Source: Azonexus sp.
GTDB taxonomy: Bacteria; Pseudomonadota; Gammaproteobacteria; Burkholderiales; Rhodocyclaceae
Length of the DNA stretch: 64,000 bases
Assembly: GCF_023150235.1 (NCBI RefSeq)
Contig: NZ_JAKLLH010000018.1
Coordinates: 1 to 64,000 of the forward strand
Direction of reading: 5' to 3'
In this document: one piece after another, positions 19,855 through 47,586 of the stretch
How the letters are laid out: every line of letters begins with the position of its first letter
Position numbering within the stretch: position 1 is the first letter of the stretch
Made by a program: the position numbers and the translations under genes
The notes under the pieces: generated by a model
The model's input: only the letters and a program-made list of their open reading frames with translations
Database searches by the model: none
Told to the model about the DNA's origin: nothing

Positions 19855-19862
19855 GGAGCGAC

Positions 19863-19883: not shown

Positions 19884-20027
19884 CGCCGCCAGAAAAACAA
19901 CACTCTCAGAATAATTCCCTATCCGGATCATGGATATTTCCCCCTCAGCCAATGTATGTGGGACACTCAGGCGTAAGTCAGGAATATCCAAAAACAAGTT
20001 GGACATTGCAGAAACCGGGGGGCAAAA

Positions 20028-21917: not shown

Positions 21918-22047
21918 GCACAGAGCGCGGCCGGTTCGGCAAGAGCAAAGCACGAAAAACTGCGCCCTCCCCACTTCAAACCGCTATCCAGACGTTTCAT
22001 TCTTGATTTAACGGCTTTTCATGTAGCACTGATACAAGGGGACGAAA

Positions 22048-23526
22048 ATGAAAAAACTACGTTTTTCAGCCTGCCAGGCCAGCGCCTGTCTATGGCTGTC
22101 CGTCATGGCGTTTGCCTCGCCAGCCCACGCGCAACAAGCACAGGGTCAGGGTCAGGAAACGCCTTATACCCAGGCTGCGACGGCATTCTTCGCCGAGACC
22201 GAAGTCTTTGGTACTCAATCCAGTCTGCTCATCGACAACACGCAAGAAATTGACAACGCCTTATTGACTCTGGAAAACATCCTGTCCCTGCAACACAAAG
22301 CCGCCATGGCCCTGAAACAGCTGGACAATACGCTGACCACTACACAGCAGATGATCGTGGTGGCAAAACAAATCCCGCAGACCAGGGCGCAAGCGGAAAA
22401 ACTGGAAGTCAATCTCAATACCATACACCCCGGCATCACCCGGGCAGCCATCTCTGCCGAAAAAGTGGATATCGCCCTGGAGCCGACCAGGACAGCAACC
22501 ACCAAAGCGGAAAGGGCCGCCGAAACAGCCCTGGATTACGAAAGCAAGCTGCGCGATTTCGGGCTGGCCTACATTGACCAGGTCGAAAACCTGACGCAGT
22601 GCGTTGAGGCGCATCCGCCCATGGAGCCGCCGGCCACCGGCCTGCTCGGCCGTTCACGGGATGTCTTCAGCCGGCTGGACAAGGGGATGACGATTGCCAA
22701 TCAGACCTATGCCAATACCGTCGGCGCACCCGCCAAAGCAGTGCATGCCACCATTGCGGAAATCAGCAAGCAGGTTCGGCAACTGGAACAGATGCTGGCG
22801 GCCATCACCGCCCTGCAAAACCAGCTCCAGCCACTGAACGAACCCTTGGCCGAGCTCAAGAAAATTCTTGATCAATCCCTTGGTTTTTCCTTCCCGTATC
22901 CGTGTGGCGCCAAAATGTGCTCGCAAAGTACGCCCTATCCTTGCGGTGTCAAAACCTGCAAAGGCAGCTGGGGGGTGCGTTATCCCTGCGGCACCAAGAT
23001 CTGTCACAAGGAAGTTCCCTTCCCGTGCGGCGTCAACACCTGCAATGCCAGTGCAAACATGTCCGTGAGTGTTGCCCTGAACGGTGCGGATGCGATCGAA
23101 CACAAGATCGAAGCAATCTTGAGTTCCGCCGCCTGGACGGCACTGAAGACCATCGGCGTCAAACAATATGTCGACCAAATCAGCCATCAGGCCGATTCCT
23201 TGTTGAACCCTGTGCTGGGGAGACTACATCTGGATATTTCCCCCAATCTACCGAATCTGGAAGTCTCTTTGAATGGCAACATGCTGGCTGAAGCACTGCC
23301 GCAATTCAATCTGCTGGCGCAAAAGATGACTGATTTCATTGCTGTCATCGATATGCGAAACAACGTTTTCGCCCCGGAAGTGGCAAATCTGAATGCGCTG
23401 CAAGTCGACATCAACAATGGCATGCGGATGAATGCTTGTGCCGCCCCGGCAAAATTGCTGAGAGCCGTACCGCAACAACAGCGGATTGACTGGAGAACGG
23501 GACGCCCGTACGTCAATATCCGCTAA
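22048..23526 (+). CDS. Secreted coiled-coil-like protein with four [YF]PCGxxxC loops
   Basis: I do not recognise this 492-residue protein. A signal peptide ends near AHA|QQ (residue 28). Residues about 50-275 are Ala/Leu/Gln/Thr-rich and probably helical or coiled coil (for example AALQNQLQPLNEPLAELKKIL at reduced length). Residues 284-332 hold four tandem loops: YPCGAKMC (284-291), YPCGVKTC (297-304), YPCGTKIC (312-319) and FPCGVNTC (325-332), each a CX4C pair with spacings of 13, 15 and 13. A helical C-terminal part follows. The gene is 130 bp after the TPR-secretin gene, has no other neighbour on its strand, and is closed by a strong terminator, so the pair looks like one unit. Confidence 0.8.
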   Translation: MKKLRFSACQASACLWLSVMAFASPAHAQQAQGQGQETPYTQAATAFFAETEVFGTQSSLLIDNTQEIDNALLTLENILSLQHKAAMALKQLDNTLTTTQQMIVVAKQIPQTRAQAEKLEVNLNTIHPGITRAAISAEKVDIALEPTRTATTKAERAAETALDYESKLRDFGLAYIDQVENLTQCVEAHPPMEPPATGLLGRSRDVFSRLDKGMTIANQTYANTVGAPAKAVHATIAEISKQVRQLEQMLAAITALQNQLQPLNEPLAELKKILDQSLGFSFPYPCGAKMCSQSTPYPCGVKTCKGSWGVRYPCGTKICHKEVPFPCGVNTCNASANMSVSVALNGADAIEHKIEAILSSAAWTALKTIGVKQYVDQISHQADSLLNPVLGRLHLDISPNLPNLEVSLNGNMLAEALPQFNLLAQKMTDFIAVIDMRNNVFAPEVANLNALQVDINNGMRMNACAAPAKLLRAVPQQQRIDWRTGRPYVNIR

Positions 23527-23577
23527 CACGCATCATTCTGGATGCCTGTTGAAGAAGCCATGGTGCCAAGGCTTCGG

Positions 23578-23617
23578 ACGGCTGATTTCCGCTACTGGAA
23601 ATCAGCCGTTTTTTTGT
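23578..23617 (+). terminator. Strong intrinsic terminator after the secretin module
   Basis: ACGGCTGATTTCC (23578-23590), loop GCTACT, GGAAATCAGCCGT (23597-23609), then seven or more Ts. A perfect 13-bp stem, 52 bp after the preceding stop. Confidence 0.92.
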
Positions 23618-23700
23618 TTTTTGCACTCACATGACAAACCGGTATCTTCAAGCAGGCTTTTGGTTTTTTTGACGGTGATCTGATGGCCGTTTTTGCTCTA

Positions 23701-23720
23701 AACCACGGTCGACCGTGGTT
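23701..23720. repeat. Dispersed palindrome, 20-bp perfect copy
   Basis: AACCACGGTCGACCGTGGTT is a perfect 20-bp palindrome centred on GTCGAC. It is intergenic, between the terminator at 23578 and the intron-like remnant. It has no loop, so it is more like a dimeric protein site than an RNA hairpin. Confidence 0.8.
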
Positions 23721-23755
23721 TTTGGAAGAAACTGACCGTTCGCAGTAACAGCAGT

Positions 23756-24070
23756 AAATCTAGCGGGTTGAAGTCCCGTCCGGGGAGTTGTCCGTGCGCC
23801 CCGGTAGCATGAGGAAGCGGTGTCGTGGTGACACGGGGTCGTGAGTTTCCAAACAGCAAGAGAGCAGGCCGTAACGCAAGTGAACCTATGAGTAGCCTCG
23901 TAAACGAAGTGGAGAAGCCGACCCTGTGGTCAGAAGGGGAAGGCCGTTGGGTGGGTGCTGGAATAACGGAAGTGGCACCCGTCGACTCCCGGGGTAGCAG
24001 GGACGGCATGTTCTTGAAGATTTATTGCCCAGTGCTGGAGACCCGTCTGCGGGGGTGGCCCCCTGGGTCA
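23756..24070 (+). mobile_element. Group II intron-like structured RNA remnant, no reverse transcriptase
   Basis: Boundaries are approximate. The stretch is full of short hairpins (GCGGG-TTGAAGT-CCCG near 23763; GTGTCG-TGG-TGACAC near 23820; GGGTGC...GCACCC near 23950) and contains GTGCGCC (23794), GCCGTAACGCAAGTGAACC and CTCGTAAACGAAGTGGAG, which I recognise as typical of bacterial group II intron domain I. No intron-encoded protein follows, and the next gene is on the other strand 220 bp away, so it is a 5' fragment. An open frame across it (about 83 codons) is not a real gene. Confidence 0.6.
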
Positions 24071-24288
24071 GAATAGTTGTCGCTTCGATAGAATCTTGGG
24101 AGAAAACTGACCCCGGCCCCTTTGGTTGCGGCCCCTTTGGTTGATGCTTTGGTTGATGGCCGAATCGGGTATTGGCATCAACGATCAATTGTTGCCGAAC
24201 CTTTGTCGTGTCCGCTTTGAGTCCAACCAGTAGATGGCAGCAGGTAGCAGACAATTCTTTCCGTATCCCACTGAGTGGCATTGGACTC
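24071..24288. other. Non-coding stretch with CCCCTTTGGTT repeats
   Basis: No gene is seen. Near 24107-24140 ACTGACCCCGGCCCCTTTGG and a second CCCCTTTGGTT resemble the TGACCCTGACCCCTTT tracts of the 62.8-63.6 kb accessory region. This suggests debris of the same repeat/mobile-element family beside the intron remnant. Confidence 0.5.
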
Positions 24289-24732
24289 TCACCCCGCCAA
24301 ACGGCCCCGCAACCTTCCCGCATACTCCTCCAGCACCTCCCTCGGCGGGTTCTTTCTCGGCCAGGAGAGGGCGATGCCGTCGTTGCCGTGGCGGGGGACG
24401 ACGTGCAGGTGGAAGTGGAAGACGGTTTGGTCGCCTTCCTTGCCGTTGGCTTGCAGCAGGGTGATGCCGGGCGGGTCGAAGCTGGCTGTGAGCGCCTGCG
24501 CGATACGCTGCGCGGTTTGCATCGCGGCGCCGGCTTCTTCCGGGGTCAGGTCGAGCAGGGTGGCGGCGTGGCGTTTGACGGCGACCAGCACATGGCCGGG
24601 GTTGACCTGGCCGATGTCCATGAAGGCCAGCGTCAGTTCGTCTTCATAGACCTTGGCGGCGGGGATTTCGCCGGCGATCAGGCGGCAGAAAATGCATTCG
24701 CCGGGTGGCGAGGTATCAACAAACATCGGCAT
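24289..24732 (-). CDS. HIT-family hydrolase
   Basis: The 147-residue protein has the histidine triad HFHLHVVP near its C-terminus, the N-terminal CIFCRLIAGEIPAAKVYED and VNPGHVLVAVKRH, as in Hint/HIT nucleotide phosphoramidases and AMP-lysine-type hydrolases. The substrate in this organism is unknown. I chose the ATG at 24732, with GAGGAG about 8 nt upstream; ATG 24726 is the alternative. An upstream in-frame extension crosses a dispersed palindrome and has no family likeness. It is monocistronic. Confidence 0.9.
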   Translation of the reverse strand: MPMFVDTSPPGECIFCRLIAGEIPAAKVYEDELTLAFMDIGQVNPGHVLVAVKRHAATLLDLTPEEAGAAMQTAQRIAQALTASFDPPGITLLQANGKEGDQTVFHFHLHVVPRHGNDGIALSWPRKNPPREVLEEYAGRLRGRLAG

Positions 24733-25102
24733 GCGGCAGGCTCCTCGGGGGGGATGAGTTTGGCTTGATTTTAGCCGCCCGGCATGGCGTGGTTTTTGAT
24801 TTTTCTCACGGTCGACCGTGTGCGGGGCAAAAAAGCGCATTTCCGCTTCCCTCGGCGGCTTGCCGCTTTCTCCGCCGGCGCATTTTTGCCTGGCGGGCAA
24901 CTGTGCGGGTTGATTACATATTTGCCTGTAACTGTGCGCAAGGAATAGCCGCGCAACTGTTACCGAGGCGGCTTTTCTCCTCATGTTTTACTGACGTCGT
25001 TGGGTATGTCTGTGTTTTGATGCGGATTTTCTGTATCTGAACGACCGTTTTCCGCATACGCGGGTGCATGCCCATCGCTACGCAATCTTATAGGGGTGAA
25101 AA
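24733..25102. other. Intergenic region upstream of nosZ
   Basis: 370 bp between the divergent HIT and nosZ genes. It holds a palindrome copy at 24807 and the nosZ ribosome-binding site AGGGGTGA (about 25092). FNR half-sites TTGAT occur at 24910 and 25018, but neither has the second ATCAA half (TTGAT-GCGG-ATTTT at best), so no FNR-type box is supported. Confidence 0.5.
24807..24820. repeat. Dispersed palindrome CACGGTCGACCGTG (copy upstream of nosZ)
   Basis: Perfect 14-bp copy in the HIT/nosZ intergenic region, preceded by GATTTTTCT and followed by GCAAAAAAGCGC, the same kind of T-rich/A-rich flanks as other copies. Confidence 0.75.
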
Positions 25103-27400
25103 ATGCGTGTACCAGCCATGCGCCAGTTGGCGCTGTTTCTACTTGCCGGCTTTTCCGCCGGTCTGGCGGGATCTGCCGTTGCTGCGGAATCCCTGCAGGA
25201 TGTCATGAAGCGCCGAAATATCTCGCAGCAGGATTTGCTGGCTGCGGCAAAAACCTATGTGCCAACCGGTAGGCGAGATGAGTTTGTGGCTTTTTCGTCG
25301 GGAGGCCAGTCGGGGCAGGTCATCGTTTATGGGATTCCGTCGATGCGGATCCTGAAATATATCGGTGTGTTCACCCCGGAGCCGTGGCAGGGCTATGGCT
25401 ATGACGAGAGCTCGAAGGCGGTACTGGCTCAGGGGAATATCGACGGTCGCAAGATCACCTGGGGCGATTCGCACCATCCGGCGATGTCGGAAACCCAAGG
25501 TAAATACGACGGGCAGTTTCTTTTCATCAACGATAAGGCCAATCCCCGGATTGCCGTGGTCGATCTGCGCGATTTCGAGACCAAGCAACTGGTTGCCAAC
25601 CCGATCTTCAAGTCGGAGCACGGTGGCGCTTTCGTGACGCCGAATACCGAATATGTGATCGAGGCGGCTCAGTATGCGACGCCGTTTGAAAACAAGAAAT
25701 TCGTGCCGCTCGAGGAGTTCAACGAGAAATACCGAGGGGGCATCACCTACTGGAAATTCGATCGCAAGGAAGGCCGGATCGTTCCCAAGGATTCCTTCTC
25801 CGTGGAACTGCCGCCTTACTCGCAGGATTTGTCGGATGCCGGCAAGGGGCCGTCTGACGGCTGGTCCTTTACCAATTCGTTTTGCGCCGAGCGCTACGTC
25901 GGCGGGATCGAAAAGGGACGCCCGCCTTACGAGGCCGGCTGTTCGGCCAAAGATACCGACTACATGCACGTGGTGAATTGGAAGCGGGCTGCCGAGCTGG
26001 TGGCTCAGGGCAAGGCGAAGAAAATCAACGGTCATAATGTGATCATGATGGAGACCGCGATCAAGGAAGGCATCCTTTTCCTGATACCGGAACCCAAGTC
26101 GCCGCATGGTGTGATGCTCTCCCCGGACGGAAAATACATCACGGTTTCCGGCAAGCTCGATACTCATGTCATCGTCTATTCCTGGGAAAAAATCCAGGCG
26201 GCGATCAAGGCGGGGCATTTTGAAGGCAAAGACCCCTATGGCATCCCGATTATCGGCATGAAGGAGACCCTGCATAAGCAGGTGCAACTCGGGCTCGGGC
26301 CGCTGCACACACAGTACGATGCCAAGAATTGTGTTGCCTATACCTCGCTGTACGTCGATTCGCAGATCGTGAAATGGGATTATTGCGAAGGGCGGGTGCT
26401 GGACAAGATTGCCGTGCACTACAACGTCGGCCACCTGATGACCATGGAAGGCGATAGTGTCGAGCCGAAGGGTAAATACCTGGTGGCGATGAACAAGCTG
26501 TCGATCGACCGTTTCAACCCCGTTGGCCCGCTGCATCCGCAAAATCACCAGCTCATCGACATCACCGACGACAAAATGCAGCTTTTGTACGATATGCCGA
26601 TTCCTCTGGGCGAACCGCATTACGTTGTCGGGATCGAGGCCGCAAAGCTGAAGCCCGGCGTGCGTTACAAGCTGGGTACCGATTCCCGTACCGACAAGCC
26701 GCATCCGGGAGCCGTGCGTGCCGGCGAGGAAAAAACCGTCAGGAAGGGCAACAAGGTCGAGGTATTCGGTACCTTGATCCGCTCCCACATCACGCCGGAG
26801 ACCATCGAGGTCGAAGTTGGGGATGAAGTCACGGTGCACCTCACCAATCTCGAACGCGCTCAGGACGAAACCCACGGCTTTACCGTCGGCACATTCGATG
26901 TTCACGCCTCGGTCGAGCCGGGCAAGACAGTCACCGTCAAGTTCAAGGCCGATAAGGAGGGGGTATATCCCTACTACTGCACCGAGTTCTGCTCGGCCTT
27001 GCACCTGGAAATGCAGGGTTATCTCCTGGTCAAGCCCAAAGGCTGGAAACCGGCCAAGGCCGCTGCGGCGGAGCAGGCTTCCTACAACGAAGAGGATTAC
27101 AGGAAGCAACTGAAGAAGGTGGTGGAAACCCAGGCGGTGATCGATCAGGTCGTTGGCTACATTACCGGGGTCAATTATCGCGACTTCCCTGATGTCATCA
27201 ACTTGATGGACGACGCCGTCGATCAGCTGAACCGGACCAAGGAAGCTCGCGCCAAGGCCGAGGATGCCGCCCGGAAAAAGGATTGGCAGCAGGCAACGCT
27301 GTGGGCCGAGCAGATCTGGCAATACCAGGTCAAGGCGGCGGATATCGGCATGCGAGCAAAGAACTACCTTGAGCAAAATGGTGCCAGGAAAATCAAGTAG
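25103..27400 (+). CDS. nosZ: Nitrous oxide reductase, clade II (Sec-type)
   Basis: The 765-residue periplasmic copper enzyme reduces N2O to N2. The signal peptide (MRVPAMRQLALFLLAGFSAG, cleavage near AVA|AES) lacks a twin-arginine motif, the mark of clade II enzymes. CuZ-type histidine segments are seen: DSHHPAMSET, SEHGGAF, NGHNVIMMET, SPHGVMLSPDGK, LGPLHTQYD and GEPHY. The C-terminal cupredoxin domain has the CuA site YYCTEFCSALHLEMQGY. About 110 extra C-terminal residues, mostly charged helix, follow this domain. AGGGGTGA lies 5 nt before the start. A strong terminator follows directly, so nosZ is transcribed alone; nosB, nosD, nosF, nosY and nosL are not in this window. Confidence 0.96.
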   Translation: MRVPAMRQLALFLLAGFSAGLAGSAVAAESLQDVMKRRNISQQDLLAAAKTYVPTGRRDEFVAFSSGGQSGQVIVYGIPSMRILKYIGVFTPEPWQGYGYDESSKAVLAQGNIDGRKITWGDSHHPAMSETQGKYDGQFLFINDKANPRIAVVDLRDFETKQLVANPIFKSEHGGAFVTPNTEYVIEAAQYATPFENKKFVPLEEFNEKYRGGITYWKFDRKEGRIVPKDSFSVELPPYSQDLSDAGKGPSDGWSFTNSFCAERYVGGIEKGRPPYEAGCSAKDTDYMHVVNWKRAAELVAQGKAKKINGHNVIMMETAIKEGILFLIPEPKSPHGVMLSPDGKYITVSGKLDTHVIVYSWEKIQAAIKAGHFEGKDPYGIPIIGMKETLHKQVQLGLGPLHTQYDAKNCVAYTSLYVDSQIVKWDYCEGRVLDKIAVHYNVGHLMTMEGDSVEPKGKYLVAMNKLSIDRFNPVGPLHPQNHQLIDITDDKMQLLYDMPIPLGEPHYVVGIEAAKLKPGVRYKLGTDSRTDKPHPGAVRAGEEKTVRKGNKVEVFGTLIRSHITPETIEVEVGDEVTVHLTNLERAQDETHGFTVGTFDVHASVEPGKTVTVKFKADKEGVYPYYCTEFCSALHLEMQGYLLVKPKGWKPAKAAAAEQASYNEEDYRKQLKKVVETQAVIDQVVGYITGVNYRDFPDVINLMDDAVDQLNRTKEARAKAEDAARKKDWQQATLWAEQIWQYQVKAADIGMRAKNYLEQNGARKIK

Positions 27401-27430
27401 TCGATGATGTAAGTAGCAACCCGTTCATTC

Positions 27431-27482
27431 GGAGGGCGTGCACTCCCTCTTTCCCCCTCCTCGCACGCCCTCCGGATTTTTT
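27431..27482 (+). terminator. Terminator after nosZ
   Basis: GGAGGGCGTGC (27431-27441) and GCACGCCCTCC (27463-27473) form a perfect 11-bp stem with a 21-nt pyrimidine-rich loop, followed by GGATTTTTT. It lies 30 bp after the nosZ stop. Confidence 0.88.
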
Positions 27483-27504
27483 CCTTCGGAAAAGCAGATC
27501 GGGG

Positions 27505-27555
27505 CACGGATGAGGCAGACGAACACGGATCTTTCCGAAGCTTGCCAAGGCCTGC
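27505..27555. repeat. Imperfect dispersed repeat (copy after nosZ)
   Basis: CACGGATGAGGCAGACGAAC, then ACGGAT and TTGCCAAGGCCTGC, aligns with 8862-8923 after nirH. Both copies lie just downstream of a denitrification gene; with two copies this may be chance. Confidence 0.5.
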
Positions 27556-27655
27556 CGCATCGCCCGGGGACTAAGTGGGCCAATACCCCGGGAAATTCGC
27601 GTCATGTGTATTGCATGCGCACGATCTGTGCCGGAACAGTTTTTTCCTGGTTGAT

Positions 27656-27793
27656 ATGACCAGACCAATCATCCGGCTTGCCGCCTGCGCTGGCTTGCTC
27701 CTGCTCGGCTCGCCAGGCCTTGCGCTCCCCGGCGCGGGAGGTTTGTCGGAGCGGGCCAGCGAACAGGAGGCGCGTCATGCCCATGCCTGGTAA
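27656..27793 (+). CDS. Possible small secreted peptide (doubtful)
   Basis: An ATG-started 45-codon frame encodes MTRPIIRLAACAGLLLLG then SPGLALPGAGG, which looks like a signal peptide followed by a short Glu/His-rich tail. No ribosome-binding site is visible and the frame ends before any recognisable domain. It may be a real small protein or the start of a lost gene. The rest of 27483-27816 holds a repeat copy and nothing else I can name. Confidence 0.25.
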   Translation: MTRPIIRLAACAGLLLLGSPGLALPGAGGLSERASEQEARHAHAW

Positions 27794-27816
27794 AAGCCAT
27801 CTGGATGGATGGTTTT

Positions 27817-28191
27817 TCAGCAAAGTATTGACTGGAGGCTATCGAGACCGTCGAAGCGGGCCATTTTCCGCTGCAGGGTCCGGCGGCTGATGTTGAGCAT
27901 CTTGGCTGCTTGCGAACGGTTTCCGCCGCTACGTGAGAGGATTTCGACAATGTAGTCGCGTTCAACCTCTTCCAGCGATTTCACCGGGCCGCTGCTTCCG
28001 CCTTTTTTACTGGCACGCGGCAGGGGCTTTCCTGCGTCGGGATTCGTCTTGGCGGCTTGTCCGCCGCGCTTGTCCGGAACGACGCGCAGCCGGGAGCGGG
28101 CGAGCAGTCGTTGCAGATCGGCCTCCTGGCCGGAAAACCCGGACTCCCTTTCCGAGGGAACTTCGAGCAGCAAAAAAATCGATTGAGTCAC
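27817..28191 (-). CDS. Orphan Fis-type helix-turn-helix protein
   Basis: The 124-residue protein has a C-terminal Fis-family HTH: EVERDYIVEILSRSGGNRSQ followed by AAKMLNISRRTLQRKM. The N-terminal 80 residues are basic and low in structure, with no receiver or AAA+ domain, so it resembles the DNA-binding tail of an NtrC/ActR-type regulator expressed alone. Start is a GTG at 28191 with AGGAGG 6 nt upstream, a strong site. It follows the ankyrin gene after 18 bp on the same strand. Proximity to nosZ suggests, but does not show, a role in its control. Confidence 0.8.
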   Translation of the reverse strand: MTQSIFLLLEVPSERESGFSGQEADLQRLLARSRLRVVPDKRGGQAAKTNPDAGKPLPRASKKGGSSGPVKSLEEVERDYIVEILSRSGGNRSQAAKMLNISRRTLQRKMARFDGLDSLQSILC

Positions 28192-28209
28192 GCTGGCCTC
28201 CTGGGGGCG

Positions 28210-28683
28210 TTAGCAGGGCTGGCCCGGTGTGCAGTGTTTCAGGCGCCAGAGGGAAACGACGCCGGCCACCTCGTGGGCCATGGCTTTCCTGGCCAGCGAG
28301 GTCGGGTCGCGGCCGGAGGCGGTCAGGGCGTAGGAATCCGCACCGGCTTCGAGCAAGAGCTGCGCGTGGGTGGCATTTTGTGAATAGGCGGCGACGTGGA
28401 GCGGTGTCATACCGTCGCGGTCGCGGGCATTCGGGTTGGCGCCCGCTGCGATCAAGACCTTGAGGGGGCCGGGGTTGGCATTGGCCGCTGCCAGGTGGAG
28501 CGGCGTTGAACCCATCTCGGTGCGCACTTCCCTGCTGCCGGGGGCGGAGCGGAGCGCGGTCGCCAGGTCTTCTGCTGTGCCGGTCCTGGCGGCATTCAGG
28601 ATCGGGTGTTCGAGTATGCTGGCATTTTCGCCTCCAGCACAGTTGAGGCTGATCGCAGCCAGGATCATGACAAGGGCTCTCAA
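28210..28683 (-). CDS. Ankyrin-repeat protein, exported
   Basis: A 157-residue protein with a signal-like N-terminus (MRALVMILAAISLNCAGG). At least two ankyrin repeats are clear: GSTPLHLAAANANPGPLKVLI with AAGANPNARD, and GMTPLHVAAYSQNATHAQLL with LEAGADSYA. It ends with a Cys pair region (KHCTPGQPC). Ankyrin repeats bind protein partners; the partner is unknown. It probably forms an operon with the Fis-type gene and is divergent from the Crp/Fnr gene. Confidence 0.82.
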   Translation of the reverse strand: MRALVMILAAISLNCAGGENASILEHPILNAARTGTAEDLATALRSAPGSREVRTEMGSTPLHLAAANANPGPLKVLIAAGANPNARDRDGMTPLHVAAYSQNATHAQLLLEAGADSYALTASGRDPTSLARKAMAHEVAGVVSLWRLKHCTPGQPC

Positions 28684-28919
28684 AGTCGATTTCCTCGATT
28701 AATTAGATTGTTAGGGAAATTTTCACCCGGCTCGAGGGGTCGCTGTGATAACAGCTGGTGACTTAGTCTTGCAATACAGAGCAAAGCGCCCGCCAATCTG
28801 TTGCCATGGAATTCGATGGATTCTGTAACTGTTTTCCACACCGTGCTTCTGGTGTACTTCGGGGTATCGGCAACTTGCTCCCTGGGCTTTCCAATGGGCT
28901 TGCTTTATAGGAGGGGAGG

Positions 28920-29636
28920 GTGGGCGGACAAGACTGTGAAAAAATCCTGGCGTGCGTTGCTTCGTTCCAGGCGCGTTTCCCATTGGCGGGCGTCTGTCGG
29001 CAACGGGTGCTGCGCAATCGCTATGTTTTTCACTCGGGAGACCCGGTGCCGGGCCTCTACCTGGTCGTCGAGGGCCTGGTGAAGATATCGCGGGTGAGCA
29101 GCAGCGGGACCGAGAAAGTGATCCATATCGCCGCTGGGGGAGATTTCCTGGCGGAAGTGCCTGTTTTGCTGGCGCATGCCTGCGACACCACTGCGCAAGC
29201 CGCCACGGATGTCGAGCTTGTCCTGATTCCCCGGCAGGCCGCCATGGATTTTCTTCGCGAGTCGCCGCCGGTGCCGTGGCAGCTCCTGGGAGGCATGGCA
29301 CGGAAGATGCACGGTCTGCTCCTGGATATCGAGTTGAATTTCAAGGCCGGGCATGAGCGGGTGGTCGATTTCCTGCTTGCTCATGCCCTCGATTCGTCGG
29401 CGCGGGATGAGCACTTGAGTGTTGCCTTGCCTATCAAGAAAACCGACCTGGCCTCCCGGCTTGGGCTGACGCCCCAGCATTTTTCGCGCATCCTGCAGGA
29501 TTTGCGGAAAAAGGGCCTGATCGTGGTCGATGGGCCGCTGATCCACGTTCCCTCGGTTGGGGGATTGAGAAACGGCTACCTGCGTTTTGGCAAAAACAAA
29601 GCGGCTTCGCGACTGGCCTGTGCCGGGGCGGCATGA
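28920..29636 (+). CDS. Crp/Fnr-family transcriptional regulator (Dnr-like)
   Basis: The 238-residue protein has a cyclic-nucleotide-binding-like beta domain (YVFHSGDPVPGLYLVVEGLV; GGDFLAEVPVL), a long dimer helix, and a Crp-type HTH (KKTDLASRLGLTPQHFSRIL, then QDLRKKGLIVV). It lacks the Fnr CX2CX5C iron-sulphur pattern; cysteines at 6, 12 and 26 do not fit it, so it resembles Dnr/Nnr-type nitrogen-oxide sensors rather than Fnr. A GTG start directly after GGAGGGGAGG is used. It is a candidate for the FNR-type site of nirS, 26 kb away. It overlaps the MocR-type gene by 4 bp. Confidence 0.87.
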   Translation: MGGQDCEKILACVASFQARFPLAGVCRQRVLRNRYVFHSGDPVPGLYLVVEGLVKISRVSSSGTEKVIHIAAGGDFLAEVPVLLAHACDTTAQAATDVELVLIPRQAAMDFLRESPPVPWQLLGGMARKMHGLLLDIELNFKAGHERVVDFLLAHALDSSARDEHLSVALPIKKTDLASRLGLTPQHFSRILQDLRKKGLIVVDGPLIHVPSVGGLRNGYLRFGKNKAASRLACAGAA

Positions 29637-31090
29637 GCAAGCGTACAAGCGCGAGTGCGATCTATCGGGGAACAAGCATGGTGCGTTATCAAAGTCTGGC
29701 CTATGAAACCGAAAAGCTGATTGTCGAGGGGGTGCTGCGCCCCGGAGATCGGCTACCCTCGGTGCGCCAGGTGTGCCGGACTCATGCCATCAGCCCGGTA
29801 ACCGTGACGCAGGCCTATTACCTGCTGGAAAGTCGGGGCCTGGTCGAGGCAAGGCCAAAATCGGGCTATTTCGTTCGTGCCCGCCTCGGTCAACGGCTGA
29901 ATGAGCCGGAAATGAGCCATCCGCTGGGGCATTCGACCGAGTTGCAGGTCAGTGATTTCATTTTCCAGATACTCCACAGCGTCAAGGACCCGGCGGTGAT
30001 GCCGCTCGGGTCCAGTTTTCCCAGCCCCTTTCTCTTCCCGCTCGATAAATTGGGGCGCTTTCTCTGCCAGGCTGCCCGGCGCTTCGATCCGCTATCGACA
30101 TTGACCGACCTGCCTCCCGGCAACGAGGAATTGCGTCGCCAGATCGTGCTGCGTTACCTGTCACGCGGGGCGGTGGTGTCGACCGAGGAGGTTGTGGTGA
30201 CCTCCGGGGCGATGGAGGGGATCAATCTGTGCCTGCAGGCGGTGACGCAGCCGGGCGACCTGATCGCCATCGAGTCGCCGACCTTTTATGCCGGGCTGCA
30301 GGCCAGCGAGCGGCTTGGCCTCAAGGTGGTCGAAATTCCGTCGCATCCGCGCGAGGGCATCAGTATCCAGGCCCTGGAAGAGGCTTTGCGGCAGCACCCG
30401 ATCAAGGCCTGCCTGCTGATGCTCAATTTTGGCAATCCGACCGGAAGCCTGGTCAGCGATGAGCGAAAACGCTACCTGATCGATTTGCTGGCGCGTCACG
30501 ATGTGCCCTTGATCGAGGACGACGTCTACAACGAGCTCTACTTCGGTGCGCAGCCGCCCTTGTGCAGTAAATCGCTCGCCAGGGCCGATCATGTCATGCA
30601 CATCTCCTCCTTTTCCAAGTGCCTGGCCCCCGGTTATCGCCTGGGCTGGGTGGCTGCCGGGCGCTATGCGGAAAAGATCGTCCGGCTCAAGTTGGCGACA
30701 ACCCTGGCGACGACGGTCCCGGTGCAGATTGCGGTGGCGGAATATCTCAAGCATGGCGGCTACGATCACCACTTGCGCCGTTTGCGGCAGCAATTGCTGG
30801 TGCGGGAATCGCTTTTGCTTGAAGGGGTGGAGCGGTATTTTCCTGCCAGCACGCGGCTGGCCAGGCCGGCTGGTGGGTATTTCGTCTGGCTCGAATTACC
30901 GGAGTCCGTCGACGCCCTCAAATTGCATCGCATGGCGCTGGACCAAGGGATCAGCATTGCGCCCGGGCCGATTTTTTCGGCAAAAAAAGAGTTCGGGAAT
31001 TGCATCCGTCTCAATTTCGGACACCCGCAGGCTGACAGCCTGCGGCAGGCCATCGTGACCCTCGGGCACCTGGTGAGCAAGCTATCGTGA
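29633..31090 (+). CDS. MocR/PdxR-type regulator (GntR HTH fused to PLP aminotransferase)
   Basis: A 485-residue protein: GntR winged helix (about 15-90; GDRLPSVRQVCRTHAISPVT and QAYYLLESRGLVEARPKSGY), then a fold-type I aminotransferase domain with LNFGNPTGS, IEDDVYNELYF and the PLP-lysine segment ISSFSKCLAPGYRLGW (Lys near 328). MocR proteins regulate PLP, GABA, taurine or amino-acid genes. The target is unknown; no obvious metabolic operon is adjacent. Its ATG overlaps the Crp/Fnr stop (ATGA), so the two regulators are translationally coupled, which is unusual. Confidence 0.92.
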   Translation: MSKRTSASAIYRGTSMVRYQSLAYETEKLIVEGVLRPGDRLPSVRQVCRTHAISPVTVTQAYYLLESRGLVEARPKSGYFVRARLGQRLNEPEMSHPLGHSTELQVSDFIFQILHSVKDPAVMPLGSSFPSPFLFPLDKLGRFLCQAARRFDPLSTLTDLPPGNEELRRQIVLRYLSRGAVVSTEEVVVTSGAMEGINLCLQAVTQPGDLIAIESPTFYAGLQASERLGLKVVEIPSHPREGISIQALEEALRQHPIKACLLMLNFGNPTGSLVSDERKRYLIDLLARHDVPLIEDDVYNELYFGAQPPLCSKSLARADHVMHISSFSKCLAPGYRLGWVAAGRYAEKIVRLKLATTLATTVPVQIAVAEYLKHGGYDHHLRRLRQQLLVRESLLLEGVERYFPASTRLARPAGGYFVWLELPESVDALKLHRMALDQGISIAPGPIFSAKKEFGNCIRLNFGHPQADSLRQAIVTLGHLVSKLS

Positions 31091-31093
31091 GAC

Positions 31094-31132
31094 CTCCGCC
31101 TTGTCGGCCAGGCCAGGCCAGCCAAGGCGGAG
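31094..31132. terminator. Hairpin between the MocR-type gene and norF
   Basis: CTCCGCCTTG (31094-31103) pairs with CAAGGCGGAG (31123-31132), 10 bp perfect with a 19-nt loop containing CCAGGCCAGGCC. Weak T-richness (ATTTATCC) follows on the plus strand. It lies between convergent genes and may serve both. Confidence 0.55.
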
Positions 31133-31175
31133 ATTTATCCGGGCGCATCCCGCTTGCCGATGCGCTCGTCGTTTT

Positions 31176-31484
31176 TCAGATGGATGCGAAGCGGGCGAAT
31201 TCCTGGCCAAAAAAAGTGGTCAGGATCAGGGCGGCGGGGGTGAAGGCGATGAAGGCGTGCGTGACGCGACGGATGAAAGGGTGGGCGATCTGCGTTTCCA
31301 CGAAATGGCGGGCAATCATTTCGCCTTTGATCCAGACGATTGCCGCTACCAGCAACTGCAGCCAGGCCGCTCCCTGGAGCCAGCGATTGAGCAGGACGCT
31401 GAGCGCGGTCAGGCCGACCAGCACAAGCCATGTCGTGACCAGCGGACGATAAGAGGTCGATGGGGTGATTGAGTGCTGATTCAT
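31176..31484 (-). CDS. norF: Cytochrome-oxidase subunit IV-like membrane protein (NorF-like)
   Basis: A 102-residue protein with three hydrophobic segments (LVTTWLVLVGLTALSVLL; AAWLQLLVAAIVWI; THAFIAFTPAALILTTFF). The length and the KGEMIARHFVE segment fit small COX4/NorF-like proteins. It starts 2 bp after the norE stop. NorF supports nitric oxide reductase in Paracoccus-type denitrifiers; the catalytic norCB genes are not in this window, so assignment to NO reduction rather than an oxidase rests on the pairing with NorE. Confidence 0.7.
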   Translation of the reverse strand: MNQHSITPSTSYRPLVTTWLVLVGLTALSVLLNRWLQGAAWLQLLVAAIVWIKGEMIARHFVETQIAHPFIRRVTHAFIAFTPAALILTTFFGQEFARFASI

Positions 31485-31486
31485 GC

Positions 31487-32092
31487 TTACACCAGGACGT
31501 AGAAGAAGGGGAAGATGACAAGCCAGATGATGTCCGTTGCGTGCCAGTAGCAGGCCAGTGCCTCCAGGCCGGCGTGATCCTCGGCGGAGTAGCCGCCGAC
31601 CAGGTGTCGGGCGAGCACCCAGAGAATGCCCAATATTCCCCAGGTGGCATGGACGAGGTGATTGAAGGTGAGGTAGTAATAAACGGTGAAGAAAATCCCG
31701 GATTCGCCATTGATGCCCTGGCTGAGATTCCACTGGATTTCAAGGTACTTGGCGACCGGGTAGCCCAGGGCGACAACGAGCCCCGCGATCAGCCAGTAAA
31801 GCGACTGCCGGCGTTTGTTGGCGCGCATTGCAACCACGGAGCAGGCGATGAAGAAACTGCTGCTCACCATCAGCAGGGTGATGGCGGTGCCGGCAAATTG
31901 CGACAGCCTCGCGCTGCCCGCCTCGAACGAGGCGGGAAAGTGGGCACGGGCAATGAAGTAGACCGCGAAAAGGACAAGGAACTCGACAAACTCGCAGGTA
32001 ATGCCCACCCAGATGCCTTTGTTGCCGGGGATGCGGAATGTCTGCTCGCTGCTTGCTGCTGCTTCGGGTAGGGATAGGGTATGTGAACTCAT
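31487..32092 (-). CDS. norE: Cytochrome c oxidase subunit III-like protein (NorE-like)
   Basis: The 201-residue protein has five predicted membrane helices and the COX3-family features GIWVGITCEFVEFLVLFAVY, HLVHATWGILGILWVL and the terminal CYWHATDIIWLVIFPFFYV. The size (about 200) and the pairing with a NorF-like gene match NorE of denitrifiers. ATG at 32092 is preceded by AGGAAA. It shares a transcript with norF. Confidence 0.82.
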   Translation of the reverse strand: MSSHTLSLPEAAASSEQTFRIPGNKGIWVGITCEFVEFLVLFAVYFIARAHFPASFEAGSARLSQFAGTAITLLMVSSSFFIACSVVAMRANKRRQSLYWLIAGLVVALGYPVAKYLEIQWNLSQGINGESGIFFTVYYYLTFNHLVHATWGILGILWVLARHLVGGYSAEDHAGLEALACYWHATDIIWLVIFPFFYVLV

Positions 32093-32477
32093 GGCGTTTC
32101 CTGTCGGATGGATGCCTGATTGTTCGCTCGATTCCCTTTTGATAACAGATACAGCATTGCTGAAATCGCATGGGTACAGATGCCTTGCCCGCTTGCGAGA
32201 GCGATCAGCCACCCCGAGGCGGGGCGGGAGCCGTCAATCGGCAGTGGCTCCCTCTGTGCCGGGTCGTCGTGGAAATCCCGCATTTGAAGGCTCGCTTTCG
32301 GAGTGTTTCTTGCCGATTTTTTGCCGAAGATTGACGGGCTGGATGGGCTTGCCGCCGGGAGCCTTGTCGCGCAGAGTTTCGCATCTTGTTGTTTTTCCTC
32401 ATTTCCACGGTCGACCGTGGAAATCGGCGAAAATCGCGGCCTTGCCGGTGCTGCCGGCGTTTTGTCTTGGCCTGATC
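32093..32477. other. Intergenic region between norE and the L,D-transpeptidase
   Basis: 385 bp between divergent genes. It carries the longest palindrome copy (32401-32424). The plus-strand frame over about 32420-32480 reads KIAALPVLPAFCLGLIV, which looks like a signal peptide for the downstream gene but lacks a standard start with a ribosome-binding site. Nothing else is recognised. Confidence 0.5.
32401..32424. repeat. Dispersed palindrome, 24-bp perfect copy
   Basis: The core CACGGTCGACCGTG (32406-32419) is extended by ATTTC on the left and GAAAT on the right, giving perfect two-fold symmetry over 24 bp. Followed by CGGCGAAAATCGCGG. Confidence 0.85.
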
Positions 32478-33401
32478 GTGTCTGAACCCTCTGCTCTTCC
32501 CGCCGCGCCCATGCCTTCCCCCGACCTGGCTGGGGAGGCGCTGGCGCCCGTTGCCGGCGATGACGCGCTGGCGACCGTGCTGGCGTCTTCTCATCAGTTG
32601 CTGCTGTGCCTGGCGGCTGACTGGCAGGCGACCAGCGGGCGTTTGCAGCGTTTTGAGCGGACGGCGGCCGGCTGGCAGCCGGTGGGGGCGGCGTGGCCGG
32701 TGATGCTGGGGCGCAACGGCCTGGCCTGGGGGATGGCTGGGGTGCCGGCGGGTGTGATCGAAAAGACGCTGGCTACAGCAGAGAAAACGGGGGCGGCAGT
32801 GGTTGCGAAAAATGCCGCCGAAAGTACAGCGCGAGTCACCGCCGAGAACGTGCCGGAAAATCTTCACCCGCCAGGGCTGGCTGCCGCACTTGAGCTAGTC
32901 GCCGCCGCAACCACCCCTCCGCGCAAAATCGAGGGCGACGGCCGGGCGCCGGTCGGGGTGTTTCCAATCACTGCCGTGTTCGGTTACGCGGCGGCCGACA
33001 GCGCCCTGGCGCAGGCGCTGCGGTTGCCGTATTTGGCGGCGCATCCTGGCTTGCAGTGCGTGGATGATCTGGCCTCAGCGCATTACAACCAGGTGGTGGA
33101 TCGCGCCACGGTCACGGTCGACTGGGGTTCGGCCGAAGAAATGCGCCGCGCCGACGGCCGTTACGAACTCGGCGCGGTGCTTGCCTATAACCAGCCGCCG
33201 CAGCCGGGGCGCGGTTCGTGCATTTTCTTGCACGTGTGGGAGGCGCCGGGCGTGCCCACCGCCGGCTGCACCGCGCTGGCGCTGCCGGCGATGCGCGAAC
33301 TGGCGCTGTGGCTCAATGCCGCCGCCCGGCCGCTGCTGCTGCAGTGGCCGCAGGCCGAGTATGCGGCGCGGCGGGCGGCCTGGGGCTTGCCCGATTTGTG
33401 A
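32478..33401 (+). CDS. L,D-transpeptidase (YkuD) family protein
   Basis: The catalytic signature is at the C-terminus: GRGSCIFLHVW then GVPTAGCTALA, the HxxGS-like histidine and the SxGC cysteine of YkuD enzymes, which cross-link or modify peptidoglycan. Other family-like features are KIEGDGRAPVGVF and VMLGRNGLAWG. The start is uncertain. GTG 32478 (used here) and ATG 32511 give no signal peptide, whereas an unusual upstream start in the KIAALPVLPAFCLGLIV stretch would give one, as expected for a periplasmic enzyme. A sequencing or start-codon oddity next to the palindrome is possible. Confidence 0.8.
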   Translation: MSEPSALPAAPMPSPDLAGEALAPVAGDDALATVLASSHQLLLCLAADWQATSGRLQRFERTAAGWQPVGAAWPVMLGRNGLAWGMAGVPAGVIEKTLATAEKTGAAVVAKNAAESTARVTAENVPENLHPPGLAAALELVAAATTPPRKIEGDGRAPVGVFPITAVFGYAAADSALAQALRLPYLAAHPGLQCVDDLASAHYNQVVDRATVTVDWGSAEEMRRADGRYELGAVLAYNQPPQPGRGSCIFLHVWEAPGVPTAGCTALALPAMRELALWLNAAARPLLLQWPQAEYAARRAAWGLPDL

Positions 33402-33485
33402 GCCGGGCCGCTGGGTCGGCGCCGGCTTTGGCGTAGACTGGCGCTCTTTTCATCTTGCTCAGCGGCGGCGGGCCGCGCCTTTATC

Positions 33486-34730
33486 GTGCTTAACCGGATC
33501 TGGATTGGCTTTGTCTTGTTCGCCTTCGCGGCGGCGCTGTGGCAGGCGCTGCACGGCGATGTCGAGGTCTTTGCGCGGCTGCTGACGACCTTGTTCGACA
33601 GTGCCAAGACCAGTTTCGACATCGCGCTCGGGCTGGTCGGGCTGATGAGCCTGTGGCTGGGGGTGATGAAGGTGGGCGAGCGCGGCGGCCTGATCGAGGC
33701 GCTGGCGCGGCTGCTGGCGCCGTTCTTCCGCCGCATCTTTCCGGCGATTCCGCCGGGGCACCCGGCCAGCGGCAGCATCGCGATGAACTTTTCCGCCAAC
33801 CTGCTCGGCCTCGACAACGCGGCGACGCCGCTGGGGCTGAAGGCGATGCGCGAACTGCAGGAGATCAACCCGCAGAAAACGGTGGCGAGCGACCCGATGC
33901 TGATGTTCCTGGTCCTCAATACCGCCGGGATCACGCTGATCCCGACCTCGGTGATCGCGATCCGCCAGAGCCTGGCGCTCAAGCAGGGGCTGGTCGGCTT
34001 CAACGCCGCCGACATCTTTTTGCCGACCCTGCTCGCCACCTTCATCTCGTTTACCGCCGGGCTGATCGCGGTCGCCCGCTGGCAGCGCATCAACCTGCTG
34101 TGCCGGCCGGTGCTGGTCTTCTTTGCCGGTTTTGCCGCGCTGCTCGCCGGGCTGTACCTGTGGCTGGGCGGCTTGCCGCCGGAGGAGATGGCGCGGGCAA
34201 TGGGGGCGCTGGGCAGCGGCACGGTGCTGGCGATCATCGGGCTCTTTGTCGGCGTCGCGGCCTGGCGCGGCGTCGATGTGTACGCCAGCTTTGTCGAGGG
34301 CGCCAAGGATGGTTTCAATGTTGCGATCCAGATCGTGCCTTACCTGGTCGCGATGCTGGCGGCGATTGCGCTGTTCCGCGCCAGCGGCGGCATGGGCTGG
34401 CTGGTCGAGGGCATCGCCTGGGGCGTGCGCGGGCTGGGGCTGAATACCGATTTTGTCCCGGCGCTGCCGGTCGGGCTGATGAAAACCCTGTCGGGCAGCG
34501 GCGCGCGCGGCTTGATGGTCGATGTGATGACCACCTACGGCGTCGATTCCTTCGCCGGGCGGCTGGCGGCGATCATCCAGGGCTCGACCGAAACCACCTT
34601 CTACGTGCTGGCGGTGTATTTCGGCAGCGTCGGCATCACGCAAACCCGCTACGCGGTGGCCGGCGGCCTGATCGCCGATGCGGTCGGGCTGGTCGGCGCG
34701 ATTTTGATCGGCTACGCCTTTTATCACTGA
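33486..34730 (+). CDS. Fused SpmA-SpmB-like membrane protein (nucleoside-recognition/Gate domains)
   Basis: The 414-residue integral membrane protein is made of two Gate-domain halves. The N-half has TSFDIALGLVGLMSLWLGVM and SGSIAMNFSANLLGLDNAATPLG (given in parts), as in spore maturation protein A; the C-half has GAKDGFNVAIQIVPYLVAML, GVDSFAGRLAAIIQGSTETT and YFGSVGITQTRYA, as in SpmB. Such fusions occur in many non-sporulating Gram-negatives with unknown transport or signalling role. The start is a GTG with no clear ribosome-binding site. Confidence 0.88.
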   Translation: MLNRIWIGFVLFAFAAALWQALHGDVEVFARLLTTLFDSAKTSFDIALGLVGLMSLWLGVMKVGERGGLIEALARLLAPFFRRIFPAIPPGHPASGSIAMNFSANLLGLDNAATPLGLKAMRELQEINPQKTVASDPMLMFLVLNTAGITLIPTSVIAIRQSLALKQGLVGFNAADIFLPTLLATFISFTAGLIAVARWQRINLLCRPVLVFFAGFAALLAGLYLWLGGLPPEEMARAMGALGSGTVLAIIGLFVGVAAWRGVDVYASFVEGAKDGFNVAIQIVPYLVAMLAAIALFRASGGMGWLVEGIAWGVRGLGLNTDFVPALPVGLMKTLSGSGARGLMVDVMTTYGVDSFAGRLAAIIQGSTETTFYVLAVYFGSVGITQTRYAVAGGLIADAVGLVGAILIGYAFYH

Positions 34731-34784
34731 GCCGCCGGGCGGCCTCCTGGCTGCCCGCCTGGTCGACTTGCGGGTTTTCCCTGA

Positions 34785-34806
34785 TTTTCACGGTCGACCG
34801 TGAAAA
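34785..34806. repeat. Dispersed palindrome, 22-bp perfect copy
   Basis: The core CACGGTCGACCGTG (34789-34802) is extended by TTTT on the left and AAAA on the right. Intergenic, 55 bp after the SpmAB stop and followed by GGGCAAAAACCCG. Confidence 0.85.
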
Positions 34807-34879
34807 AGGGCAAAAACCCGCTCGACGCCGGCGCAAAGGCTGGCGCACAATCCGTTTTTTTCTGCCTCGCTGGTATTTC

Positions 34880-35509
34880 GTGGCCCGGATCGTCGTTTTC
34901 AACAAGCCTTATGGCGTGCTCAGCCAATTCACCCCCGAGGGGAAGTGGCGGGCGTTGGACGAGTTCATCCCGCTCAAGGGGGTGTATGTCGCCGGCCGCC
35001 TCGATGCCGACAGCGAAGGCCTGCTGCTGCTGACCGACGACGGCCAGTTGCAGGCGCGCATCGCCGAGCCCAGGCACAAGCTGGAAAAAACCTACTGGGC
35101 GCAGGTCGAGGGCATTCCCGACGAAGCGGCGCTCGACCGGCTGCGCGCCGGGATCGCCTTGTCCGACTACGTCGCCAAGCCCGCCAAGGTACGGCTGATC
35201 GACGCGCCCGCAGGGCTGTGGGAGCGCGATCCGCCGATCCGCTACCGGGCGGCAATTCCGACCCGCTGGCTGGAAATCCGCATCAGCGAGGGCAAGAACC
35301 GCCAGGTCAGGAAGATGACGGCGGCTATCGGCTATCCTACGCTGCGCTTGGTTCGGGCGGCGATTGGCCGGCTCGACCTGGCCGGACTGGCGCCCGGGGA
35401 ATGGCGTCAGTTTGCTGGCAGCCTGGCCGACCTGGCGCCATCGGCTGCCGTCGCGCAGCATCCGGCGGTGTCCCGTTCCCATCAAAAAAAAGGAAAATAC
35501 AGACCATGA
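34880..35509 (+). CDS. rluE: 23S rRNA pseudouridine synthase, RluE-like
   Basis: The 209-residue RsuA/RluB/E-type enzyme contains the catalytic motif AGRLDADSEGLLLLTDDG with the nucleophilic Asp, and the family segments NKPYGVLSQFTPEG, ISEGKNRQVRKMTAAIGYPT and LVRAAIGRLDL. There is no N-terminal S4 domain, which fits RluE (U2457) more than RsuA/RluB. A GTG start at 34880 gives MARIVVFNKPYG. The stop overlaps the next gene's ATG by 4 bp. The C-terminus has about 20 extra basic residues (SRSHQKKGKYRP). Confidence 0.9.
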   Translation: MARIVVFNKPYGVLSQFTPEGKWRALDEFIPLKGVYVAGRLDADSEGLLLLTDDGQLQARIAEPRHKLEKTYWAQVEGIPDEAALDRLRAGIALSDYVAKPAKVRLIDAPAGLWERDPPIRYRAAIPTRWLEIRISEGKNRQVRKMTAAIGYPTLRLVRAAIGRLDLAGLAPGEWRQFAGSLADLAPSAAVAQHPAVSRSHQKKGKYRP

Positions 35510-35757
35510 AAAAGCTGATCAGCCTGCTGGCTGCCATCGCCCTCATTTCCACCTCTTTGGTCGCCGACGCCGCGCCGCGCCACAAGCATGGCGTCAAGGC
35601 CGTCAAGATGCATCAAGCCAAAACCGGGGCCAAGAGCGGGGCCAAGGCCGGCAAGAGCCTGAAATCCAGGAAGACGCACAAGAAGTCGCTGTCCGCGAAG
35701 AAGGCCAGGCGCGCCCCGGTCGGCGCCTACAACGGGCCGCGCGTTGCCGCCCAGTAA
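35506..35757 (+). CDS. Small exported lysine-rich protein
   Basis: An 83-residue protein with a clear signal peptide (MKKLISLLAAIALISTSLVA, cleavage near ADA|APR) and a mature part made of Lys, Ala, Ser and Gly, with GAKSGAKAGKSLKSRKTHKK as a near-repetitive core and a terminal GAYNGPRVAAQ. No cysteines or known domain. It is strongly cationic and could bind nucleic acid, phosphate polymer or cell wall; this is speculation. It overlaps the rluE stop (ATGA) and has its own AAGGAAA. Confidence 0.7.
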   Translation: MKKLISLLAAIALISTSLVADAAPRHKHGVKAVKMHQAKTGAKSGAKAGKSLKSRKTHKKSLSAKKARRAPVGAYNGPRVAAQ

Positions 35758-35773
35758 GTAATCACGGAGTCGC

Positions 35774-36208
35774 ATGAAACCCATTTTCTCCCTCCTCGCC
35801 GCTTTGCTGCTGGCGCCCGTCGCGCAGGCCGAAATGCCGCGCATGGAGCTGACCGCCGGCATGTACCGGATCGACGCCGAAGTCGCTGCCGACCAGCAAA
35901 ATCGTATGGTCGGGTTGATGCAGCGCAAGAGCATGCCGCAGCACCACGGCATGCTGTTCGTCTTCCCGCAGGCGAACACCCACTGCATGTGGATGCGCAA
36001 TACGCTGTTGCCGCTGTCGGTCGCCTTCCTCGATGAAAGCGGGATCGTCATCAACGTCGAGGACATGCAGCCGCAGACCGAGGACAGCCACTGCGCACGT
36101 CGTCCGGCACGCTTTGCGCTGGAAATGAACCTCGGCTGGTTCCGCGAGCGCGGGATCAAGTCCGGCAGCAAGATCGGCGGCATCGAGCGCGCGCCGCAGC
36201 CGCGGTAA
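35774..36208 (+). CDS. DUF192 family exported protein
   Basis: The 144-residue protein has a signal peptide (cleavage near AQA|EMP) and the DUF192 hallmarks EVAADQQNRMVGLMQRKSMP, GMLFVFPQANTHCMWMRNTL (partly), PLSVAFLDESGIVINVEDM and a terminal GIKSGSKI. The family is widespread, small and of unknown biochemical function. It sits 16 bp after the Lys-rich gene and 6 bp before ubiC, so it is likely in the same operon. Confidence 0.9.
   Translation: MKPIFSLLAALLLAPVAQAEMPRMELTAGMYRIDAEVAADQQNRMVGLMQRKSMPQHHGMLFVFPQANTHCMWMRNTLLPLSVAFLDESGIVINVEDMQPQTEDSHCARRPARFALEMNLGWFRERGIKSGSKIGGIERAPQPR

Positions 36209-45531: not shown

Positions 45532-47586
<2,055 letters not shown>

Follow-up and report, generated by a model that had tools for sequence, protein, structure and literature searches.

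Self-DNA uptake sequences are known from the Pasteurellaceae (uptake signal sequences, USS) and the Neisseriaceae (DNA uptake sequences, DUS) only, according to the available part of a 2025 paper (PMC12616744). Excerpts of PMC1626085 describe USS types with A/T segments and an excess of perfect over mismatched copies, DUS devoid of flanking motifs, and a density of about 1 per kb for USS and DUS. DUS occur in dialects around a constant inner core, and inverted pairs of them serve as terminators, including an overlapping pair type in Simonsiella (excerpts of PMC3630211); the use of USS and DUS in terminators of Pasteurellaceae and Neisseriaceae is also covered in the available sections of PMC1852404 and PMC13020248. 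Here, we describe a short asymmetric motif which is dispersed over a 64-kb stretch of bacterial DNA (the window, i.e. all 64,000 nucleotides analysed) and over the genome containing it, and which probably acts as a DNA-uptake (self-recognition) signal. The window is contig C35 of this genome of 3,416,561 bases in 50 contigs (numbers with C, G and L are our handles for contigs, genomes and loci). In a partial survey of the literature, no publication was found that deals with this motif or with uptake sequences of the bacterial group studied.

A preliminary description of the window had singled out a palindromic 14-mer, CACGGTCGACCGTG, and its five exact copies (7857, 23704, 24807, 32406 and 34789) were found again. 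Allowing up to two mismatches, 11 matches were obtained against 0.42 expected, a number reached in 0 of 100 shuffles. Perfect symmetry extends over 24 bp at 32401-32424 and 22 bp at 34785-34806, as had been described, and at 23700-23721 over 22 bp instead of the 20 bp given before; the copies at 7857 and 24807 are symmetric over 14 bp only. The shorter palindromes were also recovered; those at 11929 and 45978 measure 12 bp and the one at 52936 measures 10 bp. Four of the five 14-mers are intergenic, as previously noted, according to our own simple codon-usage gene caller, which misses some short genes; this assignment depends on the start codons, and longer mechanical open reading frames (ORFs) cover 24807, 32406 and 34789.

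The palindrome is ruled out as the basic unit, since single asymmetric half-sites outnumber palindromes 131 to 31 in a 464-kb sample of the genome comprising the window and 20 further stretches. The most over-represented 10-mers in this sample are the half-site CACGGTCGAC (144 vs 2.5) and CACGGTCAAC (49 vs 0.9), while the top 12-mer is the palindromic core ACGGTCGACCGT with 76 copies, both strands counted. The 287 copies of GACCGTG are preceded by GTC in 144 cases, by GTT in 49, by GTG in 8 and by GTA in 4. The unit is an asymmetric bipartite motif, in which the core GTYGACCGTG is preceded, at a distance of about two helical turns, by an upstream A/T tract. As GTCGAC is self-complementary, two opposed motifs can share it, thereby yielding the palindrome, and the T-rich left and A-rich right flanks already reported for the palindrome are present and explained as the A/T tracts of two overlapping motifs. 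At 130 single half-sites, the tract at positions -19 to -16 has 80-96% A+T in DNA of 62% G+C, with G/C occupying -13 and -12 and a less pronounced A/T preference at -9 to -7 and +10 to +14. Four A/T in a row starting within -21 to -16 were found at 118 of these 130 sites, with a background of 0.023 per start. The search patterns were picked after viewing the data; reversed patterns, Markov simulations and 392 other genomes were used as controls. A codon or protein motif is ruled out by the occurrence in both orientations, in all three codon phases (mostly one) and between genes, and by the rarity of GTG and GTA before GACCGTG.

In the whole genome, the core word occurs 662 + 640 times and its control 16 + 21 times. 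A dialect-free form of the motif, WWWW-N15-GTYGACCG, gave 558 + 590 matches, i.e. about 1,150 sites or approximately 0.35 per kb. The 14-mer itself has 187 copies in the genome and its reversed control none. Compared with order-2 Markov sequences, the 464-kb sample contains 193 cores vs 3.2, 160 copies of the bipartite form vs 1.7, and 31 palindromes vs 0. Perfect and one-mismatch copies stand at 193:180, although there are 28 times more possible mismatched words; for the reversed control the ratio is 6:121. Single sites mostly lie within genes (100 of 131, with 3926 of 4780 sampled positions as background), in both orientations and in all three codon phases, 75 of 101 sharing one phase. The palindromes are mainly located between genes (22 of 31), 13 of them between convergent genes (background 176 of 4780). 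After merging, the sites are spaced more evenly than by chance (coefficient of variation 0.756 vs a mean of 0.925; 6 of 2000 simulations were as low). The sister chromosome G042 was sampled in 21 stretches of 20 kb out of 3.57 Mb; every stretch holds 3 to 12 sites, with 38 on the plus and 35 on the minus strand in the first ten, mostly of positive GC skew, and 44 on each in the other eleven. Confinement to an ori or ter domain was thus not seen, nor was strand polarity; equal strand counts rule out a polarity of the Chi or KOPS type.

The comparison with the sister species covers 61 kb, restricted to alignments with 400 or more columns and 74% or more identity. Here, 16 of 22 sites are conserved, five carry one to six core substitutions and one falls into a gapped, poorly aligned intergenic stretch. 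In the reverse view, 16 of 17 sister sites are conserved in the genome studied here. Apart from the gap, these differences are substitutions, with no clean insertion seen, and by inspection the flanks are unlike between copies, both of which speak against a mobile element; the earlier view that the copies are not recent duplicates of one element holds.

At the eight positions outside the 14-mer, 38 palindromes of the genome have 176 matched positions against a permutation mean of 122.6 (176 was reached in 0 of 5000), which bears out, overall, the claim that the outer bases vary and stay self-complementary. Matching in the A/T tracts is at chance level (84 vs 86.2). The matched share is 0.74 for nine palindromes between co-directional genes, 0.64 for 13 between convergent genes, 0.46 for three between divergent genes and 0.42 for 12 within genes, plus one edge case. 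Compared by this share only, palindromes between convergent or co-directional genes carry, on average, extended stems, and genic ones do not. Inverted pairs forming hairpins between genes, as in DUS and USS, are present, few of them with an adjacent T run: four T within 8 nt were found at only 4 of 76 palindrome flanks. In some copies, the outer A/T tract provides the U-tract of a complete terminator-like hairpin, e.g. at L028:19684 (-36.1 kcal/mol, z -6.3), which ends in a T run. Most copies show no obvious structure of this kind, and the one at 24807 does not fold better than shuffled sequences. A terminator scan of 16001-36000 of the window did not list the palindromes located there, probably because T runs do not directly follow the stems. 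Some of the intergenic pairs appear to have been reused as transcription terminators.

The end of the core changes between relatives. Words ending in TG dominate in the genome studied here and in G042 (630 + 613), whereas those ending in CA dominate in G077 (788 + 842), G008 (638 + 659), G010 (662 + 607) and G083 (588 + 525). Less sharp forms were seen in G044, with CC and CT as commonest ends (15 each of 89), and in G053, which has the flanked form CCGGTTGACCGTGG. GTYGACCG and the A/T tract stay constant while the core ends vary, i.e. dialects surround a constant core as in DUS and USS; the tract at about -19 to -16 is kept in seven profiled relatives (G008, G019, G010, G018, G042, G044 and G053), most weakly in G053. 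The exact 14-mer has 11 copies in G018, two in G010, one each in five others and none in 33 of 40 relatives.

For the dialect-free form, 399 genomes of the order were sampled. Among them, six of the seven members of the genus have 371 to 594 sites per strand and the seventh, G052, has 59 and 39; none of the 392 other genomes, eight of them from the same family, exceeds 20 per strand. Among 76 genomes of the genus, 40 have at least 391 sites in total, eight have 88-159 and 28 have at most 60. On a tree of 40 of these genomes, built from one locus of six window proteins, motif presence changes at least eight times (shuffled mean 12.3, minimum 8). For example, G021 with 40 sites is sister to G077 with 1785. 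A de novo search for a substitute word in 120 kb each of the motif-poor genomes G041 and G079 found none. The eight intermediate genomes (G043, G047, G051, G052, G073, G088, G005 and G007, four of them on the tree) may represent steps in the decay that follows when the preference is lost, and be useful for timing it; G088 and G047 are sisters of the motif-rich G068 and G013, a placement that looks like decay after loss.

Loci of named genomes were retrieved with the comEC gene of the genome studied here, which itself was left out. Among the best 80 of 269, six motifs were found in the 15.0 kb of L207, from a Dechloromonas sp. metagenome-assembled genome (MAG), and three in the 14.8 kb of L209, from a Rhodocyclaceae MAG; the remaining 78, including Accumulibacter and Sulfuritalea, have two in all. 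The motif-bearing genus would thus be of the Dechloromonas/Azonexus type, with which the Sec-dependent nosZ and the cyanophycin synthetases of the window fit. In G008 (L041-L044), palindromes of the type GTTTCACGTGAAAC are present which are distinct from the motif and resemble the parS consensus.

Compared with the Pasteurellaceae USS of the AAGTGCGGT and ACAAGCGGT types, as far as excerpts of the literature describe them, the motif likewise has a short core with one-sided A/T segments at about one and two helical turns, many copies, dialects, inverted pairs in terminator-like hairpins and more perfect copies than near-misses. In USS orientation, the CA dialect reads TGCGGTCRAC followed by downstream A/T tracts, so that TGCGGT and the tract side are common to both; this likeness may be convergence or chance. 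The motif departs from USS in its constant core GTYGACCG (CGGTCRAC), in a greater distance of the strong tract and in a presumably betaproteobacterial host; in the 464 kb, AAGTGCGGT has three copies and ACAAGCGGT one. With the Neisseriaceae DUS (GCCGTCTGAA and dialects), described in similar excerpts, the motif has in common a high-copy 10-12-mer, dialects around a constant inner core, inverted pairs including the overlapping type of Simonsiella, and a host with type IV pilus genes. It differs from DUS in a core without CTG and in the flanking A/T tract, none being described for DUS in the excerpts of PMC1626085; GCCGTCTGAA, the one DUS word counted, has no copy in the 464 kb, and the distribution of the ComP_DUS-family pilin found here does not follow that of the motif.

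The genome encodes ComEC (an 860-aa ORF), dprA and 17 prepilin matches with E values no higher than 1, of which 15 are over the cut-off, and its minor-pilin operon includes one ComP_DUS-family and one GspH/FimT-family pilin. Among the 76 genomes of the genus, comEC was found in 71, dprA in 75 (73 over the cut-off), the ComP_DUS-family pilin in 70 and the GspH/FimT-family pilin in 69. Two orders of the minor-pilin operon were observed, one with PilE first and one starting with FimU-PilV-PilW and ending with PilE (L106-L125); species within a single genus have either the one or the other, as though the operon were swapped as a cassette. The comEC gene is broken, split or fragmentary in the motif-poor G017, G060 and G079, which contig ends may explain in some cases. 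In G079 (L194:1-11719) and in G002 (contig C33 109525-144033) it is split at the same domain position into pieces 32-34 kb apart, the N-terminal pieces being weak matches, and the fragments in G017 and G018 start near the same position. Beside the 3' part in G079, a fragment of a type-B DNA polymerase, a D5/VapE-type primase-helicase, an IS66 transposase and an IrrE-type peptidase gene are located, and the insert looks like an integrative element disrupting competence.

From these data, we infer that the motif is likely to be a DNA-uptake signal. Within the competence machinery, a minor pilin of the type IV pilus would prefer motif-bearing DNA, which would mostly come from the same species, enter via the pilus pore and ComEC, and recombine. 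Over generations, biased uptake and recombination would enrich the motif; changes of the receptor would create dialects, and loss of the preference would let the motif decay. This reading is the most likely one because biased uptake with recombination would jointly explain the accumulation in genes, the even spread, the dialects and the repeated gain or loss. The evidence also leans towards a third, independently evolved uptake-sequence system in a large environmental genus of the Rhodocyclales type. Such a system would comprise two clear dialects and probably further ones, would have been gained or lost repeatedly on one tree of the genus, and would use a receptor that differs from both known or predicted receptors; its USS-like geometry would suggest that the kinking of DNA at the pore was solved in the same way twice.

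Several observations weigh against uptake as the explanation. The motif is less dense than USS and DUS (about 1 per kb in the excerpts of PMC1626085), and a partial literature survey revealed no experiment on uptake or transformation in these bacteria. No receptor was found, and none of five candidate determinants compared by inspection tracks the motif: ComP_DUS and GspH/FimT genes occur in rich and poor genomes alike, the operon type is unrelated to motif presence in 19 genomes, and comEC and dprA are mostly retained in motif-poor genomes. The comEC gene is broken or split in the motif-rich G002, G008 and G018, in the latter two possibly by assembly effects, and G018 has no dprA match. Dialects are not always clean, since G018, G048 and G049 are rich in TG and CA words alike. 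G018, with 699 + 695 sites, words of both kinds, no dprA match and a fragmented comEC, may have lost competence recently or have a gap in its assembly.

Short dispersed sites read by a DNA-binding protein also include parS, matS, Noc and KOPS sites, and a site of a chromosome-organising or nucleoid-associated protein co-evolving fast with its site is one alternative. Of the preliminary description, the real arm symmetry stands, as does an element spread over the whole genome which is selected or driven and which a protein probably reads; the proposed dimer site of the parS/matS/Noc kind is not supported. The sites are indeed found genome-wide, evenly spaced and mostly conserved between sisters, and A/T tracts in phase with the helix could make the DNA bend around a protein. 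However, the motif lacks a positional domain and polarity, as seen in the 21 stretches of the sister chromosome, is mostly asymmetric, and differs in wording between close species; coding sequence would have to bear an estimated 800-900 sites, and 36 of 76 genomes of the genus are without or nearly without the motif, with the changes on the 40-genome tree given above. We therefore regard a chromosome organiser as unlikely: single half-sites, the even spread over both strands, a word changing by species and excess symmetry between convergent or co-directional genes but not within genes fit better with uptake sequences doubling as hairpins.

The convergent placement of 13 of 31 palindromes, the on average extended intergenic arms, several strong folds and the T run at L028:19684 would also suit what is primarily a family of intrinsic terminators, which is nevertheless a very improbable explanation, as the far more numerous half-sites are mostly genic, genic palindromes have no extra symmetry, T runs are rare at the flanks and the scan did not list the palindromes at 16-36 kb. 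Equally far from likely is an iterated word kept by methylation or mismatch-repair bias like HIP1 of cyanobacteria, which is likewise abundant and of debated function. The central GTCGAC is a palindromic word of the methylase type; the preferred unit, however, lacks symmetry, tolerates at position 3 a T that disrupts the palindrome, and is accompanied by an A/T tract 15 bases away. Dispersed palindromic repeats in hundreds of copies recall mobile elements of the REP or MITE kind that spread by copying, which is extremely improbable here: flanks beyond the motif are unlike between copies by inspection, most single sites are genic, differences between sisters are substitutions with one gap in 22 and no clean insertion seen, and the geometry stays constant while the core end changes by species.

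The copies in the window are listed in Table 1. Two neighbouring cyanophycin synthetase genes and a cyanophycin-associated ABC transporter gene are located at 9042-16858. Divergent motif pairs with cores 33-34 bp apart (L021:8043, L023:6342, L035:17130 and window 16926) place both A/T tracts in the stretch between the cores.

Table 1. Palindromic and single copies of the motif in the 64-kb window; contexts marked "own caller" are from our gene caller.
Feature	Position	Strand	Gene context	Fold	Remark
22-bp palindrome AAACCACGGTCGACCGTGGTTT	23700-23721	.	convergent intergenic	-21.8 kcal/mol, z -4.0	two overlapping motifs
24-bp palindrome ATTTCCACGGTCGACCGTGGAAAT	32401-32424	.	intergenic (own caller), divergent	z -3.0	two overlapping motifs
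22-bp palindrome TTTTCACGGTCGACCGTGAAAA	34785-34806	.	co-directional	-30.7 kcal/mol, z -6.0	stem runs imperfectly into flanks
14-bp palindrome	24807-24820	.	intergenic (own caller), divergent	z +0.3	no extended stem
14-bp palindrome	7857-7870	.	interior of AsnC-type regulator gene		no extended symmetry
Near-palindrome TACGGTCGACCGTG (12 bp)	11928-11941	.	within cyanophycin synthetase gene
Near-palindrome TACGGTCGACCGTG (12 bp)	45977-45990	.	within H+-pyrophosphatase gene
Inverted pair of GTTGACCGTG, facing	16910-16935	.		-33.2 kcal/mol, z -7.0	second pairing geometry; 6-nt loop, 15 predicted pairs
Single motif GTCGACCGTG	16960-16969	+			upstream A/T tract
Single motif GTCGACCGTG	5392-5401	+	intergenic (own caller)		upstream A/T tract
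Single motif	9879-9888	+	within cyanophycin synthetase gene		A/T tract
Single motif	36472-36481	+			A/T tract
Single motif GTTGACCGTG	38797-38806	+			A/T tract
Single motif	42026-42035	-			A/T tract
Single motif GTTGACCGTG	48783-48792	-			tract off by one base
Single motif	49536-49545	+			A/T tract off by one base
Single motif	52938-52947	+	intergenic (own caller)		gap in poorly aligning sister region
Single motif	52046-52055	-			one base different in sister species
Single motif GTTGACCGTG	54087-54096	-			A/T tract; six core bases different in sister species
Single motif GTCGACCGTG	33113-33122	-			tract shifted
Core word without A/T tract	1517-1526	+			possible chance match; others at 8343 (+) and 57655 (-)

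Pasteurellaceae and Neisseriaceae are mostly animal-associated. If the motif is an uptake signal, it would be a third case of self-DNA uptake, in probably free-living bacteria, and the division of the 76 genomes into motif-rich, intermediate and motif-poor ones would enable comparative tests of the origin of the tag, its rate of decay, the switching of dialects and the pilin that reads it. The motif could also be of practical use in the transformation of these bacteria.

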